IMG/VR virus record: IMGVR_UViG_3300028361_000044
Coordinates: 1 to 47,667 of that record
Origin: a virus
Length of the DNA: 47,667 bases
Reading direction: 5' to 3' (one strand)
Part shown: one piece after another, positions 1 through 40,227 of the stretch
How the letters are laid out: every line of letters begins with the position of its first letter
Position numbering within the stretch: position 1 is the first letter of the stretch
Program-made: the position numbers and the translations under genes
The notes under the pieces: model-generated
Told to the model about the DNA's origin: nothing
Seen by the model: the letters and a program-made list of their open reading frames with translations, nothing else
Database searches by the model: none

Positions 1-181
1 GTTCTACTAGTTTAGTATTTGCTGTGTAGTGGCTATCCCACACTACCATTACATCGAATCCACGTTTTTTTGCTTCTTCTAATTTAATTTTATCTCTGGA
101 CCATACTTCTTTTGCTGTTACTCCTGATTGTTTAATGATAAAATCTAAATTATATTTTTCAGGTATGATGAATATTAAGTG
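1..181 (-). pseudogene. C-terminal remnant of a Vsr/EDxHD-like homing endonuclease (runs off window)
   Basis: A minus frame is open from a TAA at 182-184 to the window edge, but has no ATG, GTG or TTG near its beginning. The translated stretch contains KEVWSRDKIKLEEAKKRGFD followed by VMVVWDSHY, the pattern of the C-terminal part of Vsr-like (EDxHD) phage homing endonucleases, where a hydrophobic strand ending in W(E/D) follows a Lys/Glu-rich helix. The catalytic N-terminal part is absent; the DNA upstream is the intein N-half in another frame. The two frames overlap for about 23 nt (159-181), so one indel there would fuse them. Probably an intein-associated endonuclease that has lost its front half or been frameshifted. 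Family call is by motif only. Confidence 0.45.
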
Positions 182-518
182 TTATTATAATATCGCCTTC
201 GTCAATTTCCTGAGGCTTAACTTCTATTAATTCACCGTTGCGTTCGACCATTACTGAATGATCTTCGGTTACTGTAACTATATTGCCGTCCGAATCCTCA
301 ATTTCGTATAAGTCCTTGGAGACTTTGTGGCGATACACATAATTAATATGACCCATATATGGTTCGTTGCGTTCTCTATCGTATGACATTACCATTACAT
401 TGTCGTCGTGTGCGTATTCCTTGTCTCCATTTTTAGTTTTAATTTCCAGTCTATTGAATAAGCTTTCGATGGTCATATCCCCTAGTGAAGTCTCAATTAC
501 CGAATCTGCTATACAGGA
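159..518 (-). mobile_element. Intein N-terminal half inserted in polymerase motif C
   Basis: The intein begins at a Ser immediately after YGDTD. Its first eight residues SCIADSVI fit intein block A (S/C-x-x-G-D-T-x-I, with A for G and S for T). Block B follows around intein residues 85-97, with the TxxH element TEDH inside GNIVTVTEDHSVMV. About 119 residues precede the stop. No C-terminal blocks (DOD motifs, block F, terminal HN) are visible, so this is either the N-half of a split intein, whose C-half lies beyond the window, or the start of a full intein broken by a frameshift. Motif C is a known insertion point for PolB inteins in archaea and viruses. The Ser nucleophile and the expected Ser at +1 of the extein (YGDTD/S) are consistent with splicing chemistry. 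Confidence 0.75.
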
Positions 519-688
519 ATCAGTGTCACCGTAAATAACAGACTTACCTACATGATCATAATCGCCTGTGATGATCTCGTTGACCTTTGCACTCATATGC
601 TTAACAATCTGCCTACCAGTTAGTGTAGTTGATTGTCCAATACGCTTGTCAAAGAATCTACAACCTGGATTAAGAATAGCACCGTACA
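159..688 (-). CDS. 43: DNA polymerase gp43, exon 2 (motif B end to motif C) with intein N-half
   Basis: Continues gp43 after the group I intron. Reading from exon 2 gives LYGAILNPGCRFFDKR, then TLTGRQIVKHM, then the PolB motif C YGDTD, all typical of T4-like gp43. Directly after YGDTD the sequence stops being polymerase and becomes an intein (SCIADSVI), ending in TGA at 159. An in-frame GTG at 687-689 looks like a start only because the intron ends there; splicing supplies the real upstream sequence. The polymerase residues after motif C (thumb and C-terminus) must lie left of the window. Product: replicative family B polymerase, assembled from split pieces after RNA splicing and protein splicing. 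Confidence 0.85.
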
Positions 689-940
689 CATTGATGTTCA
701 GTTAGAGTCGTTAATTCCAACCCGCCTTGCGGCCGCTGCATGTTACCATGCAGATCAGACTATATCACCATCTATGTTAACACAGATGTTCCCCGTTTCC
801 ACTCACTTGAGTGTACGTCTTTCGACTAGTCGTTGAACCTTCCTAACGCATTAGGCTTGGCTGCTGATTGTCCTTATAGGAGTTTCCAGCAATTAGAGGA
901 ATTATTCGACCATTGTCGCCAATGGAAGTCGCAGTACTTT
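689..940 (-). ncRNA. ORF-less group I intron in gene 43
   Basis: A 252-nt interruption between ...AACTCGT and TGTACGGT; joining them restores N-S-L-Y-G of PolB motif B. The 5' exon ends in U and the intron ends in G, as group I introns require. P1 forms between exon AACUCGU and intron GCGACUU with a U.G pair at the splice site and one C-C mismatch; the loop is AAAGUACU, and its GUAC can also form P10 with exon 2. The conserved core is readable: Q-like AATCAGCAGCCAAGCC (about 854-870), R-like GTTCAACGACTAG (826-838) and S-like GATATAGTC (758-766), with P7 pairing GACTA/TAGTC. A P9-type hairpin CTGCATG-GTAA-CATGCAG has a GNRA loop. It resembles subgroup IA phage introns such as those of T4. It encodes no endonuclease. 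Confidence 0.92.
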
Positions 941-1130
941 ACGAGTTTAGGTTAATCTTCTTGACTAGTTGGCGTTTATCCCAAAATGTTATTTGATCTA
1001 GTATGTAGTCCTTGTCATTAGAAATGACCTTGTTATCCTTGATTCTTAAATTATGGTTATCAAGATACAGCGCAATCTTTTTTGGATCGCCGTTACTAAT
1101 TAGTTGATTAAGTTTTTTGATATCTATCAC
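941..1130 (-). CDS. 43: DNA polymerase gp43B, exon 1
   Basis: Starts at GTG (1128-1130), preceded by AAAGGAG about nine bases upstream and overlapping the HNH gene stop (GTGA). It encodes about 63 residues leading into WDKRQLVKKINLNS, the polymerase motif B helix, and would hit TAA at 939-941 if unspliced. In intact marine T4-like gp43 proteins this block follows directly after the fingers entry helix that ends gp43A. The separate ribosome-binding site means the polymerase is translated as two chains (A and B), as reported for split gp43 of some Aeromonas T4-like phages. Unspliced RNA would give only a 63-aa peptide. Confidence 0.8.
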
Positions 1131-2287
1131 TGAGTATTCTCCTTTAAGTTATATTCTTCTTTAAATTTAAAATCTAGTAGTTTATACAAGTTTATTCCGA
1201 TACTTGTTAAGTTTGCCTCTTTATACTTTGTTCTAAAGGCATGTGTTTTTAAGTTATTATTAAAATGCGGGGCTTTTATAATACCCGTGTTTAGTTCCTT
1301 ATATGAAAGAAATATATTATTTCCTTCCAGGTATTTTAGAATATATTTTTTTCCTACTATTATATTATTTTGATGTAACAGAACAATGACTTTATCAAGT
1401 GATTGCCCGTCATAACACACGTGAATCTTTTTATTTACTCGATGTTCTTCTAAGAATACATATGTTTTTTTAACTATATCGATATATTTAGATTTCTGAC
1501 AATCATTAATATAAGTAAATCCTTGATGATTAATTCTTCCTTTAATAAAGCCTGTTGGTATTGCTACAGAATTGTCTATTCGAAGTTGTTCTTTGGTATC
1601 AGGATTATAGCACCAAATAGTATCCGATACGGTTGACTCGTACCATGCAGGATTAATATACGGAACGTAGTCTGCAGATACTTGTTCAGGGTGTAACATT
1701 CTTACATTACCGTCAACGTCTTGATAAAATTTAGTCCCTTTGTTTTTATTTTTAATTTTAGTTTTAGTTTCTTCAGAATGCGTGTAACCAGATCGTTGAG
1801 TCACAATCTCTCCGGTTTTCCATCGAACATCGTTTCTGTCAGCCCAAAAATTTGTATTATCATATACATTTCGTGCAGGCGATTTACCTATGATAGAATT
1901 CTTTAATGCCAACAAGTGTTCCGGACTTCGTTTCCTGCCGCTGTTCGACTTTGAAATTGCTAACGCGATCTCTTTTCGTCCGTAATTATACAATACACTA
2001 TTATACCCGCATCGTTTCATTAGATTAAAAGAAAACCACATTTTTGGAGATCTTATAAACTTTGCTAACATCCAATGAGCAATAAAATGTTGGCGCCCAG
2101 TTAACAAAACTATATTCCTCTGATTTTTTATATGTTTAGGGAATAACGACCTTGGAAGTATGTGATGCTTTTCGGTGTATACGTCTTTTTTAATTATCTG
2201 AGTTTTACAATGCTCAATAAACTTTAAATATCTAAAAAGATACAGTTCATTTTTGCTCTCGGGTCTTAGATATGATAGATAATTCAT
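1127..2287 (-). CDS. HNH homing endonuclease splitting gene 43
   Basis: A 386-aa protein if started at the ATG at 2287, chosen because GGAGG lies eight bases upstream; an upstream ATG at 2320 lacks a site. The HNH motif is at residues 41-71: HH at 41-42, N58, H67 and H71, followed by AHWMLAKF. A NUMOD-like element GRKRSPEHLLALK follows at about 117-129; the C-terminal half is probably DNA-recognition sequence. The gene sits exactly between the two polymerase pieces, just downstream of the gp43A stop and overlapping the gp43B start by 4 nt. It has its own late octamer (2311-2318), as free-standing T4 endonuclease genes often do. Lys/Asn/Ile-rich composition differs from the flanking polymerase. 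Confidence 0.88.
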   Translation of the reverse strand: MNYLSYLRPESKNELYLFRYLKFIEHCKTQIIKKDVYTEKHHILPRSLFPKHIKNQRNIVLLTGRQHFIAHWMLAKFIRSPKMWFSFNLMKRCGYNSVLYNYGRKEIALAISKSNSGRKRSPEHLLALKNSIIGKSPARNVYDNTNFWADRNDVRWKTGEIVTQRSGYTHSEETKTKIKNKNKGTKFYQDVDGNVRMLHPEQVSADYVPYINPAWYESTVSDTIWCYNPDTKEQLRIDNSVAIPTGFIKGRINHQGFTYINDCQKSKYIDIVKKTYVFLEEHRVNKKIHVCYDGQSLDKVIVLLHQNNIIVGKKYILKYLEGNNIFLSYKELNTGIIKAPHFNNNLKTHAFRTKYKEANLTSIGINLYKLLDFKFKEEYNLKENTQ

Positions 2288-2309
2288 CCAATATACCTCC
2301 ATATATAGT

Positions 2310-3980
2310 TTATTTATCATTTATTGTATACTTTTTAATATCTTCGGCTAACGTAGGATTAATATTAATGCCAGAATTAAGTCCCTTCCATAGCTGTAGC
2401 ATACCTTGAAGCTCCTTGCGTTCTGAGTACCACCTTTTTAACAGTCCGGGAATAACAGCTTCGAACTCGTGAGTAAATATTGTTCCATTAGCACTAATCA
2501 TCCATGGCATGTTGCTGTCGAATATAACACTGTTTACTTCGGCAGCACTCAACACATCACTGCGGCCGTCTTCCCAGTCAATAGCAATGTCAACATCTCT
2601 ACGCTTTTCCATTACGGCTGCATATTCCAATGTACCAAAATGACCTTCCCATGCCGCAGCAAATGATTTTTTCTGCAACGTCATTGCATTGTGAACCATT
2701 TCGTCTGTCTTAATAGGGCGAAGCTGTCCAATAATGCTTTCTGGTGCCATGTTAAGTGCTCTAATTACACTTGGATACAGCGAGTTAAGGTCCATTGATC
2801 CTACAGAACGATGCAAGCCTTTTTTAGGATAAGCAACGTATGCACCGGCAGCTTGTGTATTGCCTTCGTGCTTGCGTCTGTTTGGAACCTGCATACCGCG
2901 CTGGTGAGCTTCATTGATAATTGCCTGTTCGGTAACTGCAACTGCCCCCATTGTGGTTTGCAGTAACACAGTATTATCGTGCGCAATTTCATTGGCTAGA
3001 TCAATAAATCTCAATTTCTTATCCAGCTTGTCTAGTAATGCAGTATCCTGTCTGTTGTATTCAATAAACTTTTCAAAGTCATTATTGTACAACTGATCCA
3101 GTGTTCCTTCATAAACTGTTTTGTTTTCGCCAATTTCCATTTCGCCGATTGCATCAAGTCTGTATGTATGACGTTCTTCGTAAGTATACTTTCTGTACAG
3201 TTCAAGACTGTCAAGGTGTACCCGGCCGGAATAATCAAAAGTTGATGCAGTCTTGCCATACTTTTCAAATTCTCTCTTACGTGGGAGTTGGTCCCACAAT
3301 GAAAACTTTCTAGTATCGTTCTTGCTTAGTATTCTAGATATACGGTTTGTGGTATATGGAACATCGTATCCTTCACTGTTCCAGCCACTGATAATATCAG
3401 CATCCTCAATTAGTTCAAGGAATACTTTTAGCATTTCTCGTTCGCCGTTACCTTCTTTGTCATTGGGAAACAACATCACTTGATCGCCCCATCGTTCTTT
3501 GCACATTGCTTCTGCTTGATCCAACGGAAGACCTCTGGGCGGCATTGCTACAGTGATAAGTGCATCTATCCATTGTAGGTATACTGTGATTGCTGTAATT
3601 GCCATAAACGGATCCGACGGCGGAGCAAATCCTCTTTCGGGATCAAAGTCAGTTTCGATGTCAAAGAAACACACATTTAGCTTGGGGGCGTCTTGATTCT
3701 CGTAGTTTTCGCTTAGACACTGGAATATGGGATTAATATCGGACTCAAATAATTTCTTGTCTCGATTTATTGCAAGTTCTTTTCGATAGTCTTTTGTGCT
3801 CTTGCAAACAATTTTAGTTAAAGGATCTCCAAATATACTTTTGTACTTTCCTTTAGGGTCTTCGTAGTAAAATGTGTACTTTACAGGATAGTCAACAAAC
3901 TTGCGTTTGCCATTGTCTGTTCTCTCAACAACTCTAATTACATCAGCGTTCCGGTCGAACATTGCATCGACGTATGACAT
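2310..3980 (-). CDS. 43: DNA polymerase gp43A (exonuclease domain and palm motif A)
   Basis: N-terminal 556 residues of T4-type family B DNA polymerase. The 3'-5' exonuclease motifs are intact: FDIET at 106-110, SGWNSEGYDVPY around 198-209 and YNRQD at 308-312. Palm motif A DLNSLYPS is at 397-404. The protein then reads WYSERKELQ (fingers entry) and stops at NDK* where the HNH gene begins; motif B and motif C are encoded downstream by gp43B. GTGGAGAAATA precedes the ATG. Full-length gp43 is near 900 aa, so this chain is a fragment by design and must associate with gp43B to make active polymerase. It acts in the phage replisome with the clamp loader (gp44 lies at 22.1-23.1 kb). Confidence 0.93.
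   Translation of the reverse strand: MSYVDAMFDRNADVIRVVERTDNGKRKFVDYPVKYTFYYEDPKGKYKSIFGDPLTKIVCKSTKDYRKELAINRDKKLFESDINPIFQCLSENYENQDAPKLNVCFFDIETDFDPERGFAPPSDPFMAITAITVYLQWIDALITVAMPPRGLPLDQAEAMCKERWGDQVMLFPNDKEGNGEREMLKVFLELIEDADIISGWNSEGYDVPYTTNRISRILSKNDTRKFSLWDQLPRKREFEKYGKTASTFDYSGRVHLDSLELYRKYTYEERHTYRLDAIGEMEIGENKTVYEGTLDQLYNNDFEKFIEYNRQDTALLDKLDKKLRFIDLANEIAHDNTVLLQTTMGAVAVTEQAIINEAHQRGMQVPNRRKHEGNTQAAGAYVAYPKKGLHRSVGSMDLNSLYPSVIRALNMAPESIIGQLRPIKTDEMVHNAMTLQKKSFAAAWEGHFGTLEYAAVMEKRRDVDIAIDWEDGRSDVLSAAEVNSVIFDSNMPWMISANGTIFTHEFEAVIPGLLKRWYSERKELQGMLQLWKGLNSGININPTLAEDIKKYTINDK
2311..2318 (-). promoter_or_regulatory. T4-type late promoter of the HNH gene
   Basis: The minus strand reads GATAAATA, one base from the T4 late -10 consensus TATAAATA, 23 bases before the HNH start codon with GGAGG between. 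It overlaps the last codons of gp43A. Confidence 0.6.
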
Positions 3981-38390: not shown

Positions 38391-39399
38391 GTAACCTTTC
38401 GCAGGACAAATTTTTCATTTTGCTTTCTACCATAATATCTGCATGTGGAGAAAATTCTAAGGCCCAGTCATTGACTGCATGATTCCACATAAAATCGCTG
38501 TGTGCGCGTAGTTTGCCTTTTTTGTAGCCCTGTGCTAGCAAAGTCGGCATGTTGGGTCTTACAGAGTCGCTATGACCGTCTAAGACGTCTGCACGGCTCA
38601 CGCTATAATGTATAGCAGGCCTAATGCCGCGCCAGCTGTCGATCACACGCTTGAATCTGTCATCAGACGGCAATATGTATTCGCCTTCTCTGCACCAATG
38701 GTGATGTATATCTAGGACCAGGGCCAAGTCTTTGGATAATTCAAGGCTGTCTTCGATGCCCCACTTGTTTTCATCGTTCTCAATGGTAATGCAGTTTCGT
38801 GCTTCTGTAGACAATCGTTGAAGCGCACGCTTGATACCGGCTGGACCTTCGCGTCCTGCGATGTGGACGTTACACTTGAAATCTTGGAACTTCTGTCCAT
38901 AGCCCATCCACCTGATGAGATTCGCATGATATTCAAACTCCGCTATACTTCTATTTACAATTTCCGGGTTATCACTGGCAAGGACGACGAATTGTCCGGG
39001 ATGCATTGATATTCGCACATCAAGGGCTCGTGCCGCGTCGCCGACTTTTCTGTAATGGGTATCACAGTACGCAACCACGTCACTACGAGTCCAAAAATAA
39101 CTCCAATCAGCATGGGTAGCACAAGGAAGCTGATTGCTACCCAATCTAACCATACGAAGTTCAGGAATAAGGGTTCCAACATATTCTACCAATCTCTTTG
39201 CAGCAGCTGAGTTGTGTACCATAATGTCCCATAGCCGCTGTTCTGCGACATCACGTGTTTGTCTGTTAAGCCATGCAACTGTAGTGGCCCGCTCGGTTAG
39301 AGGACGTTGTAATTCCTCTAGAATCTTTGTCTTCTGTGTCTGATCCGGATGCAAGTATTTACAGGCCCAACCAATCCGCTTTATATCTTGTTTAAACAT
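38278..39399 (-). CDS. uvsE: UV-damage endonuclease UvsE/UVDE (373 aa)
   Basis: TIM-barrel UVDE: RIGWACKYLHP, SMHPGQFVVLASDN, HIAGREGPAG, ITIENDENKWG and LALVLDIHHHWCREG, with metal-binding His/Glu/Asp present. Nicks 5' to UV photoproducts, useful to surface-ocean phages. Start ATG 39399 preceded by GGAAAAAAAT. The last about 30 residues overlap the 118-aa gene and look like an added tail. Confidence 0.93.
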   Translation of the reverse strand: MFKQDIKRIGWACKYLHPDQTQKTKILEELQRPLTERATTVAWLNRQTRDVAEQRLWDIMVHNSAAAKRLVEYVGTLIPELRMVRLGSNQLPCATHADWSYFWTRSDVVAYCDTHYRKVGDAARALDVRISMHPGQFVVLASDNPEIVNRSIAEFEYHANLIRWMGYGQKFQDFKCNVHIAGREGPAGIKRALQRLSTEARNCITIENDENKWGIEDSLELSKDLALVLDIHHHWCREGEYILPSDDRFKRVIDSWRGIRPAIHYSVSRADVLDGHSDSVRPNMPTLLAQGYKKGKLRAHSDFMWNHAVNDWALEFSPHADIMVESKMKNLSCERLHEHAQQKTKVARPTGVSNSDAGMHVRNVRRGCIRAKT

Positions 39400-39424
39400 A
39401 TTTTTTTCCGTATTTGCAAGCAAT

Positions 39425-39453
39425 TGTATAAATACAGTATACACTATTTACAA
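39425..39453 (-). promoter_or_regulatory. Weak sigma70-type promoter of uvsE
   Basis: TTGTAA, 17-nt spacer, TATACA on the minus strand. Confidence 0.4.
39427..39434 (+). promoter_or_regulatory. T4 late promoter of the GIY-YIG gene
   Basis: Exact TATAAATA consensus on the plus strand, 28 nt before ATG 39463. Confidence 0.7.
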
Positions 39454-39462
39454 GGGAAGTCA

Positions 39463-40227
39463 ATGGCAAACTTATCAAAATCAAGAAAAAACAAATATCA
39501 TCTAATATACAAAACTACAAATTTAATTAACAGTAAGGTTTATATAGGCGCACACTCTACTAACGACATTAACGATGGATACATGGGTAGTGGAAAAATG
39601 CTACACTATGCAATTAAAAAATACGGTGCAGAAAACTTTAAAAGAGAAATTTTGCATCTGTTCGATTCTCCTGAGGAGATGTTCGAAAAAGAAAAAGAAA
39701 TTGTCACTGAAGAATTTGTTAGCAGGTCTGACGTTTACAACATTGTAACTGGAGGTTTCGGAGGATTTAATAAAGGATCAAAGAATCTTAGACATATTAC
39801 TAATACCAACACAGGCGAAGTTATAGCAGTTGACAAAATTAAATTAAAAGAATTCTTAAACAATGGTTGGTTTTTAGGAGGAGTAGAACCGTCTAACAAA
39901 GGAAAGGTTTATGTTTATAAAGGTAATAACCGAATAGCAATAGATTCTCTTGAAGTAGACAAATACCTTAAGGAAGGCTGGCAGTTGGGTTATGCCAAAT
40001 CTCCTACTAAAGGAAAAATATGGATATACCATAAAATCAAAAATAGATATACTTTATGCGAAGAAGCTGAACTTGAAGATTATATAAATCAAGGATGGAT
40101 TAAAAAGAAGTGGGCACCAATTAAAAAAGGATCAGTTTGGATTAATAAAGAAGGACAAAGGAAAAGAATAGATAAAGATTTATTAGACGAATATTTATTA
40201 TTAGGATGGACTAAAGGCAGAAAATAA
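39463..40227 (+). CDS. GIY-YIG homing endonuclease with C-terminal repeats (254 aa)
   Basis: GIY-YIG domain at residues 10-105: YHLIYKTTNLINSKVYIGAH, GSGKMLHYAIKKYG, ENFKREIL and EEMFEKEKEIV. Beyond residue 115 lie three to four ~45-residue repeats ending KG(K/S)(V/I)(Y/W) ... YL..GW..G, perhaps NUMOD-like DNA-recognition units. Similar to T4 Seg proteins. Start at 39463 (AAGGGAAG before it). Carries an exact T4 late promoter and lies between uvsE and a conserved gene on the opposite strand, a typical insertion. Confidence 0.9.
   Translation: MANLSKSRKNKYHLIYKTTNLINSKVYIGAHSTNDINDGYMGSGKMLHYAIKKYGAENFKREILHLFDSPEEMFEKEKEIVTEEFVSRSDVYNIVTGGFGGFNKGSKNLRHITNTNTGEVIAVDKIKLKEFLNNGWFLGGVEPSNKGKVYVYKGNNRIAIDSLEVDKYLKEGWQLGYAKSPTKGKIWIYHKIKNRYTLCEEAELEDYINQGWIKKKWAPIKKGSVWINKEGQRKRIDKDLLDEYLLLGWTKGRK

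Follow-up and report, generated by a model that had tools for sequence, protein, structure and literature searches.

The polymerase gene and its interruptions

Shown in Table 1 are the features found in the window, the whole 47,667-base stretch of viral DNA analysed here, whose minus strand carries an intron and much of the gene for gp43, the PolB polymerase of a jumbo phage. Among named polymerases, the nearest to gp43 come from jumbo phages such as PA5oct, Atu_ph07, Phosso and SCTP-2. In the order of transcription, gp43A is followed by a free-standing HNH homing-endonuclease ORF, the GTG start of gp43B, the 5' exon, a group I intron and a 3' exon that runs to YGDTDS, and then by the N-terminal half of a split intein and the remnant of a Vsr-type endonuclease ORF. 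The remainder of gp43 can be read in the 251-kb record IMGVR_UViG_3300028413_000003 (L003; L numbers are used for the loci and lineages compared), which is identical to the window over the 9,980 bases compared and continues after the remnant with the intein C half and the polymerase C-terminus. The halves of the intein are in separate ORFs (L003), with the Vsr-type ORF between them, a remnant here and intact in L006. Neither the split of gp43 into separate polypeptides nor the split intein at YGDTDS was part of the original prediction for this locus. This makes for an unusually fragmented polymerase, which is translated in two separate parts and would need one splicing step at the RNA level and one trans-splicing step at the protein level. 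In L433/L434 and L360, an HNH ORF sits between apparent split-intein halves in the exonuclease part of gp43. Elsewhere in the window, at 39349-40227 (+), lies a 292-aa ORF for a SegE-like GIY-YIG endonuclease (Pfam SegE_GIY-YIG 1.2e-6).

Table 1 Features of the split gp43 gene in the window and of the sibling intron in the same phage
Feature	Position	Strand	Evidence
gp43A, PolB N-terminal part (exonuclease and palm start), own stop in linker before motif B	2310..3980	-	Pfam DNA_pol_B_exo1 2.4e-16, DNA_pol_B 5.6e-12; PHROG 262 2e-115
Free-standing HNH homing-endonuclease ORF splitting gp43	1127..2320	-	PHROG 655 homing endonuclease 8.8e-35; PHROG 12434 HNH 2.5e-13
gp43B 5' exon, N-terminal extension and FWDKRQLVKKINLNS; GTG start after AAGGAG	941..1130	-	Splice join, sequence reading
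Group I intron, ORF-less	689..940	-	Rfam, splice join, covariation
Internal guide GCGACTT, pairs with 5' exon (P1, U.G at splice site)	926..932	-	Guide/exon pairing
P7 5' strand GACTA	827..831	-	Rfam, helix pairing
P7 3' strand TAGTC	758..762	-	Rfam, helix pairing
P9 hairpin, GTAA loop	736..753	-	Rfam, helix pairing
gp43B 3' exon, LYGAIL to YGDTDS (motif C)	516..688	-	Splice join
Split intein N-terminal half at motif C	159..515	-	Pfam Intein_splicing 3.5e-9; C half at L003:9994-10233
Vsr-type endonuclease ORF of intein, truncated remnant, runs off record	1..175	-	Matches C-terminal part of intact L006:8216-9169
Sibling ORF-less group I intron in rSAM gene, interrupts CNYRCS|YC	L110:7855-8109	-	Sequence comparison

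The HNH ORF lies upstream of the intron and stops 186 nt short of it, close to the 190 nt originally given for an HNH gene lying within the same gene, and its family is clear from the matches in Table 1. The motif E.HHILP..N..H..AH is conserved (HH...N...H..AH in all three sequences aligned). Pfam returned nothing for this ORF but a sub-threshold NUMOD3, and a PDB sequence search with the protein gave chance matches only. The second ATG of the ORF, at 2287, is preceded by GGAGG and may be the better start. An intron or intein was also considered for the HNH insert and rejected, as Rfam gives just the one intron and the flanking pieces have their own stop and start, with AAGGAG before gp43B. 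In L088, tblastn splits an otherwise equal HNH ORF into two overlapping pieces with one base missing, the mark of a frameshift or a sequencing error.

A group I intron in motif B

The intron interrupts motif B of gp43 over 252 nt. A cmscan search places RF00028 (Intron_gpI) at 736-950 (-) with a score of 92.9 bits, where the gathering cut-off is 50, and an E-value of 1.1e-22; the alignment spans the full model (1-253), and the Rfam scan of the whole window gave no other match. Removal of the intron joins ...FWDKRQLVKKINLNS to LYGAILNPGC in frame, giving NSLYG, an outcome unique among the six splice choices tried. Intronless relatives with a motif readable by script have [FY]WDKRQLVKKINLNSLYG unbroken, which equals the joined window sequence, and the insertion site is NS(T|TG)YG. 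Stops are present in all three frames of the intron, which rules out a hidden ORF. The original prediction of an ORF-less group I intron with a legible core, whose removal restores NSLYG, is borne out in each of these respects.

Helices P2, P3, P4, P5, P6a, P7, P7.1, P7.2, P8, P9, P9.1 and P9.2 can be paired in the window intron, with GACTA/TAGTC as the strands of P7 and CTGCATG-GTAA-CATGCAG as P9. In P1, a U.G pair marks the splice site and a single C/C mismatch lies inside, the 5' exon ending in ...TCGT opposite the guide GCGA. P10 has 4 bp (GTAC/GTAC), and the intron ends in ...AATG, i.e., with a terminal G. Folding of the single sequence gives a z-score of -2.99. Covariation was assessed on an alignment of 14 relatives (13 in gp43 and one in another gene) against a 64-pair structure taken from the window's own intron. 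Both sides have changed in 38 of the 64 helix pairs, and 97.7% of the 868 cells are paired; none of 500 shuffles was as good, and slid versions were far worse. For example, L238 has a compensatory change in P1, where an alanine GCG codon precedes the splice site and exon GCGT is matched by guide GCGC in place of the TCGT and GCGA found elsewhere. P10 also fits its own exon better than a swapped one, with 52 pairs against 43.7 when shuffled (0 of 5000 shuffles as good), a figure that is not a probability because the rows are related. The intron is likely of subgroup IA and is predicted to be self-splicing.

This intron belongs to a subfamily that is widespread in phages. A core-pattern search of viral contigs returned at least 120 stretches and at least 79 new loci, and related cores can be found in many named phages (1018 records). 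Among the matches listed, 73 of the 86 subfamily introns read have no more than 117 nt between the P7 strands, in a search whose pattern also required a short P6, and therefore have no ORF there. The small size that had been singled out as minimal is thus nothing special to the window. In the two nearest named examples examined, Acinetobacter phage R2096 and Vibrio phage D181, a free-standing endonuclease is present about 90-480 nt upstream of the match. For subfamily introns in general, endonucleases are not significantly enriched nearby, with 9 of 110 ORFs near the introns against 3 of 110 far from them (p 0.13), approximate counts tallied among the first 25 families listed. The near matches are GIY-YIG (4), HNH_3 (2), MTES_1575 (2) and LAGLIDADG_3 (1), with PDDEXK_15 left out, and the far ones HNH/HNH_5 (2) and Endonuclease_7 (1); both samples were drawn from ORFs of 110-420 aa (110 of the 157 near ones and 110 of the 139 far ones), once near-duplicates and contigs with ORF-holding introns had been removed. 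At three loci (L129, L196 and L203), two subfamily introns lie 0.6-1 kb apart.

A second ORF-less group I intron, 78-81% identical to the first, interrupts the CxxxCxxC motif of a radical-SAM (rSAM) gene in the window's phage. The L110 stretch listed around this intron holds no endonuclease ORF, and the family can therefore settle without the gp43 HNH. In two other phages, L154 and L177, a GIY-YIG ORF ends about 140 nt upstream of the rSAM intron.

Pairing of the intron with endonucleases of several classes

The part of gp43 between the palm and motif B, where the HNH ORF of the window lies, can be called the slot. Searching for the endonucleases first led to 13 lineages with an endonuclease in the slot and a readable motif B, and 11 of these have the motif-B intron (the window, L126, L147, L263, L353, L366, the T4-like L356 and the Vsr lineages L174, L182, L249 and L253). 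The two without it are L352 (T4-like, HNH) and L105/L106 (antisense HNH). Left out of this count are L359 and L384, whose contigs end before motif B, lineages with the endonuclease outside the slot (L360, L374, L408, L410 and L433/L434) and relatives of the endonuclease that do not lie in gp43, there being no gp43 match at 79 of 108 loci examined. L105 and L106 also have a motif-A group I intron in gp43 that holds an HNH ORF, in addition to the antisense HNH ORF that splits the gene before motif B.

The search can also be started from the polymerase or from the intron. Two scans of 80 polymerase loci each, both samples among the matches listed, gave 151 loci with neither element, 2 from the window's phage that have both, and 7 that were not assignable, so that, among the matches listed, none of the 151 relatives without a slot endonuclease has the motif-B intron. 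Set against 11 of 13, this gives p=2e-15 in a Fisher test that ignores kinship. In the intron-first search, 19 of 35 loci were gp43 and came from 13 lineages, of which 10 have a slot endonuclease, 2 do not (L250 and L260) and 1 is cut off (L172, whose intron is 98% identical and whose slot region is absent). A separate scan added L238 as a further intron without a slot endonuclease. Care must be taken with such counts, as many records are close relatives and the 18 loci with both intron and slot endonuclease reduce to about 10 lineages. On the gp43A tree, the slot changes at least 6 times and the intron at least 7 times, and the two co-occur on separate branches. A phylogeny-corrected test had 4 supported pairs, of which on average 2.9 show joint changes of slot and intron and 0 show opposite ones (p 0.25), a sample too small for significance.

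Similar pairing is seen in T4-like phages. Among 20 Aeromonas-type T4-like records, the 7 whose slot holds a GIY-YIG ORF, truncated in one of them, all have an intron, compared with 4 of the other 13 (p=0.005); the intron site is about 10 nt downstream of that in the window. In Aes007 and 50AhydR13PP, the slot is occupied by an HNH ORF and motif B is unbroken, and the T4-like exceptions show that some slot endonucleases do without an intron.

While the intron persists, the class of the slot endonuclease varies. HNH ORFs are found there in the window, L126, L147 and L263, Vsr-like ORFs in L174, L182, L249 and L253, and antisense ORFs in L251 (Vsr-like) and L261 (DUF723 and Vsr-like). The HNH ORF of the window is 25-28% identical to those of the other group, and the Vsr-like ORFs are 51-72% identical to one another. 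For instance, a single intron group (L126, L147, L263, L260, L251 and L261, introns 83-100% identical) has four slot states, i.e., HNH, antisense Vsr-like, antisense DUF723 with Vsr-like, or nothing. The Vsr rows L182, L249 and L253/L255 are scattered among intronless rows of the gp43A tree, with introns 80-95% identical. Between L238 and L250, the introns are 88% and the exons 68% identical, while for L003 and L250 the values are 76% and 85%. This suggests horizontal movement, often of intron and endonuclease jointly. Recent co-conversion in the window's own lineage is just weakly visible in a comparison with L006 (9 of 46 vs 3 of 58 mismatches, p 0.03), where a 23-nt deletion in L006 disturbs the adjoining comparison windows; gp43 is mosaic regardless of this signal. 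A tentative reading, to which we give somewhat less than even chances, is that the intron is the stable part of a composite element and the endonuclease the exchangeable one.

How the pair may move

We judge it probable that the group I intron in motif B of this jumbo-phage PolB is self-splicing and is moved with the help of the adjoining free-standing HNH endonuclease. The intron would splice out of the gp43B mRNA, by which the gene would stay functional, and the HNH, encoded about 190 nt upstream, would have its cleavage site in intronless gene 43 within or close to motif B. With the break mended from the donor copy, the endonuclease, the short exon and the intron would be transferred as one, and the donor would be protected because its intron hides the cut site. 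The cut site and mobilisation by the HNH are what we infer from the sequences compared. Within the jumbo-phage clade, a sense slot endonuclease without the intron was never seen, and the intron without an endonuclease was (L250, L260 and L238). This is as expected if the intron destroys the target of the enzyme: with motif B as the target, a phage that has the endonuclease and lacks the intron would have its own genome cut. The original prediction had likened the pair to collaborative homing, and this likeness is much strengthened, short of proof, by the recurrent pairing (11 of 13 against 0 of 151 among the matches listed) and by the changes of endonuclease class; weighing against it are the phylogeny-corrected result and the HNH ORFs found without a motif-B intron.

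Alternatively, the HNH could cut elsewhere, e.g., in its own slot, and the intron could ride along in the conversion tract, in which case the pairing would reflect linkage without a shared target. The distance is short, and linkage over 186 nt could explain part of the pairing pattern. Slot endonucleases also occur without the intron (L352, L105/L106, Aes007 and 50AhydR13PP), and one review of the subject (PMC2988022) states that the cleavage sites of free-standing endonucleases are often hundreds of bases or more away from the genes encoding them. We nevertheless regard passive carriage as unlikely, as it leaves unexplained why the sense endonucleases of the jumbo clade, in two classes, are never without the intron when the intron is seen without them, and why new endonuclease classes appear where the intron sits.

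Endonuclease-free insertion, by reverse splicing or ectopically at TCGT-type sites with the neighbouring endonucleases incidental, would agree with the presence of the subfamily in many genes and with the gp43 and rSAM sibling introns of one phage, which have nothing in common next to the insertion but a short stretch of 5' exon with TCGT at its end. However, the shared TCGT does not discriminate, because ...UCGU is required by every functional intron that has this guide; a GIY-YIG ORF also accompanies the rSAM introns in L154 and L177, and according to PMC3984707 direct experimental support exists for no pathway of reverse splicing to DNA, which makes this route improbable. Least probable, and already disfavoured, are independent invasions of a conserved and tolerant gp43 stretch, with the pairing due to coincidence and shared descent, for although many records are close kin and conserved motifs are described in PMC2814812 as drawing introns and inteins alike, the intron is found in 11 of 13 lineages with a slot endonuclease vs 0 of 151 relatives without one (among the matches listed) and there are several separate changes on the gp43A tree.

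The published precedent for the arrangement, with the same prediction, is Aeromonas phage 25, whose ORF-less gene 43 intron is predicted to use a freestanding endonuclease (PMC2993671, citing Petrov, Ratnayaka and Karam 2010). In phage 25 and its kin (intron 25.g43B, GIY-YIG seg43/helc25), as in the window, gp43 is split before motif B, a free-standing endonuclease lies in the split and an ORF-less group I intron follows shortly downstream. The same arrangement is annotated in Aes508, Aes512, Aes120 and Aes002, and Aes508 and Aes512 share with the window a split intein with a Vsr endonuclease. Unlike the window, with its jumbo phage and HNH, these are T4-like Straboviridae with GIY-YIG enzymes, the intron is about 10 nt further downstream and its core aligns to that of the window just partly.

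The intron of T4 nrdB retains a defunct I-TevIII ORF, and MobE lies outside the intron's gene, unlike the HNH of the window. The likeness lies in MobE being a free-standing HNH endonuclease that moves, by trans homing, an intron without a working endonuclease, as one passage describes (PMC2988022). The psbA gene of cyanophage S-PM2 with F-CphI and the DNA polymerase of T7-like phages also resemble the window in combining an ORF-less intron with a free-standing endonuclease nearby. In the passages on collaborative homing in psbA and the T7-like polymerase, the target of the endonuclease is the intron site (PMC3984707, PMC2988022, PMC10448857), and F-CphI is placed in a different endonuclease family (PMC6083498). 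These cases differ from the window in being other genes or polymerase families in which cutting was demonstrated.

Collaborative homing is described in published passages for psbA, the T7-like polymerase and the ICP1 terminase, where endonuclease turnover is also discussed (PMC2988022, PMC2993671, PMC3984707, PMC10448857), and how the arrangement arises is called unclear (PMC10448857). In the literature searched, which held few subscription papers, no jumbo-phage gp43 intron paired with an HNH or Vsr-like enzyme was found. The concept rests on a few phage examples in these passages, and gp43 offers many natural replicates with several endonuclease classes. Because closely related intronless recipients are also at hand, the ideas of a shared target and of endonuclease turnover become directly testable.

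The split PolB genes of vB_PaeM_MIJ3, PA5oct and Deifobo have the gp43 family and the intein site in common with the window, with a homing endonuclease ORF between the intein halves. In contrast to the window, they have neither the intron nor a slot endonuclease, and the linker extension is continuous (as read in Deifobo). The N-terminal extension of gp43B (window 995-1130 (-), L083) has its relative inside this continuous polymerase of Pseudomonas phage Deifobo.
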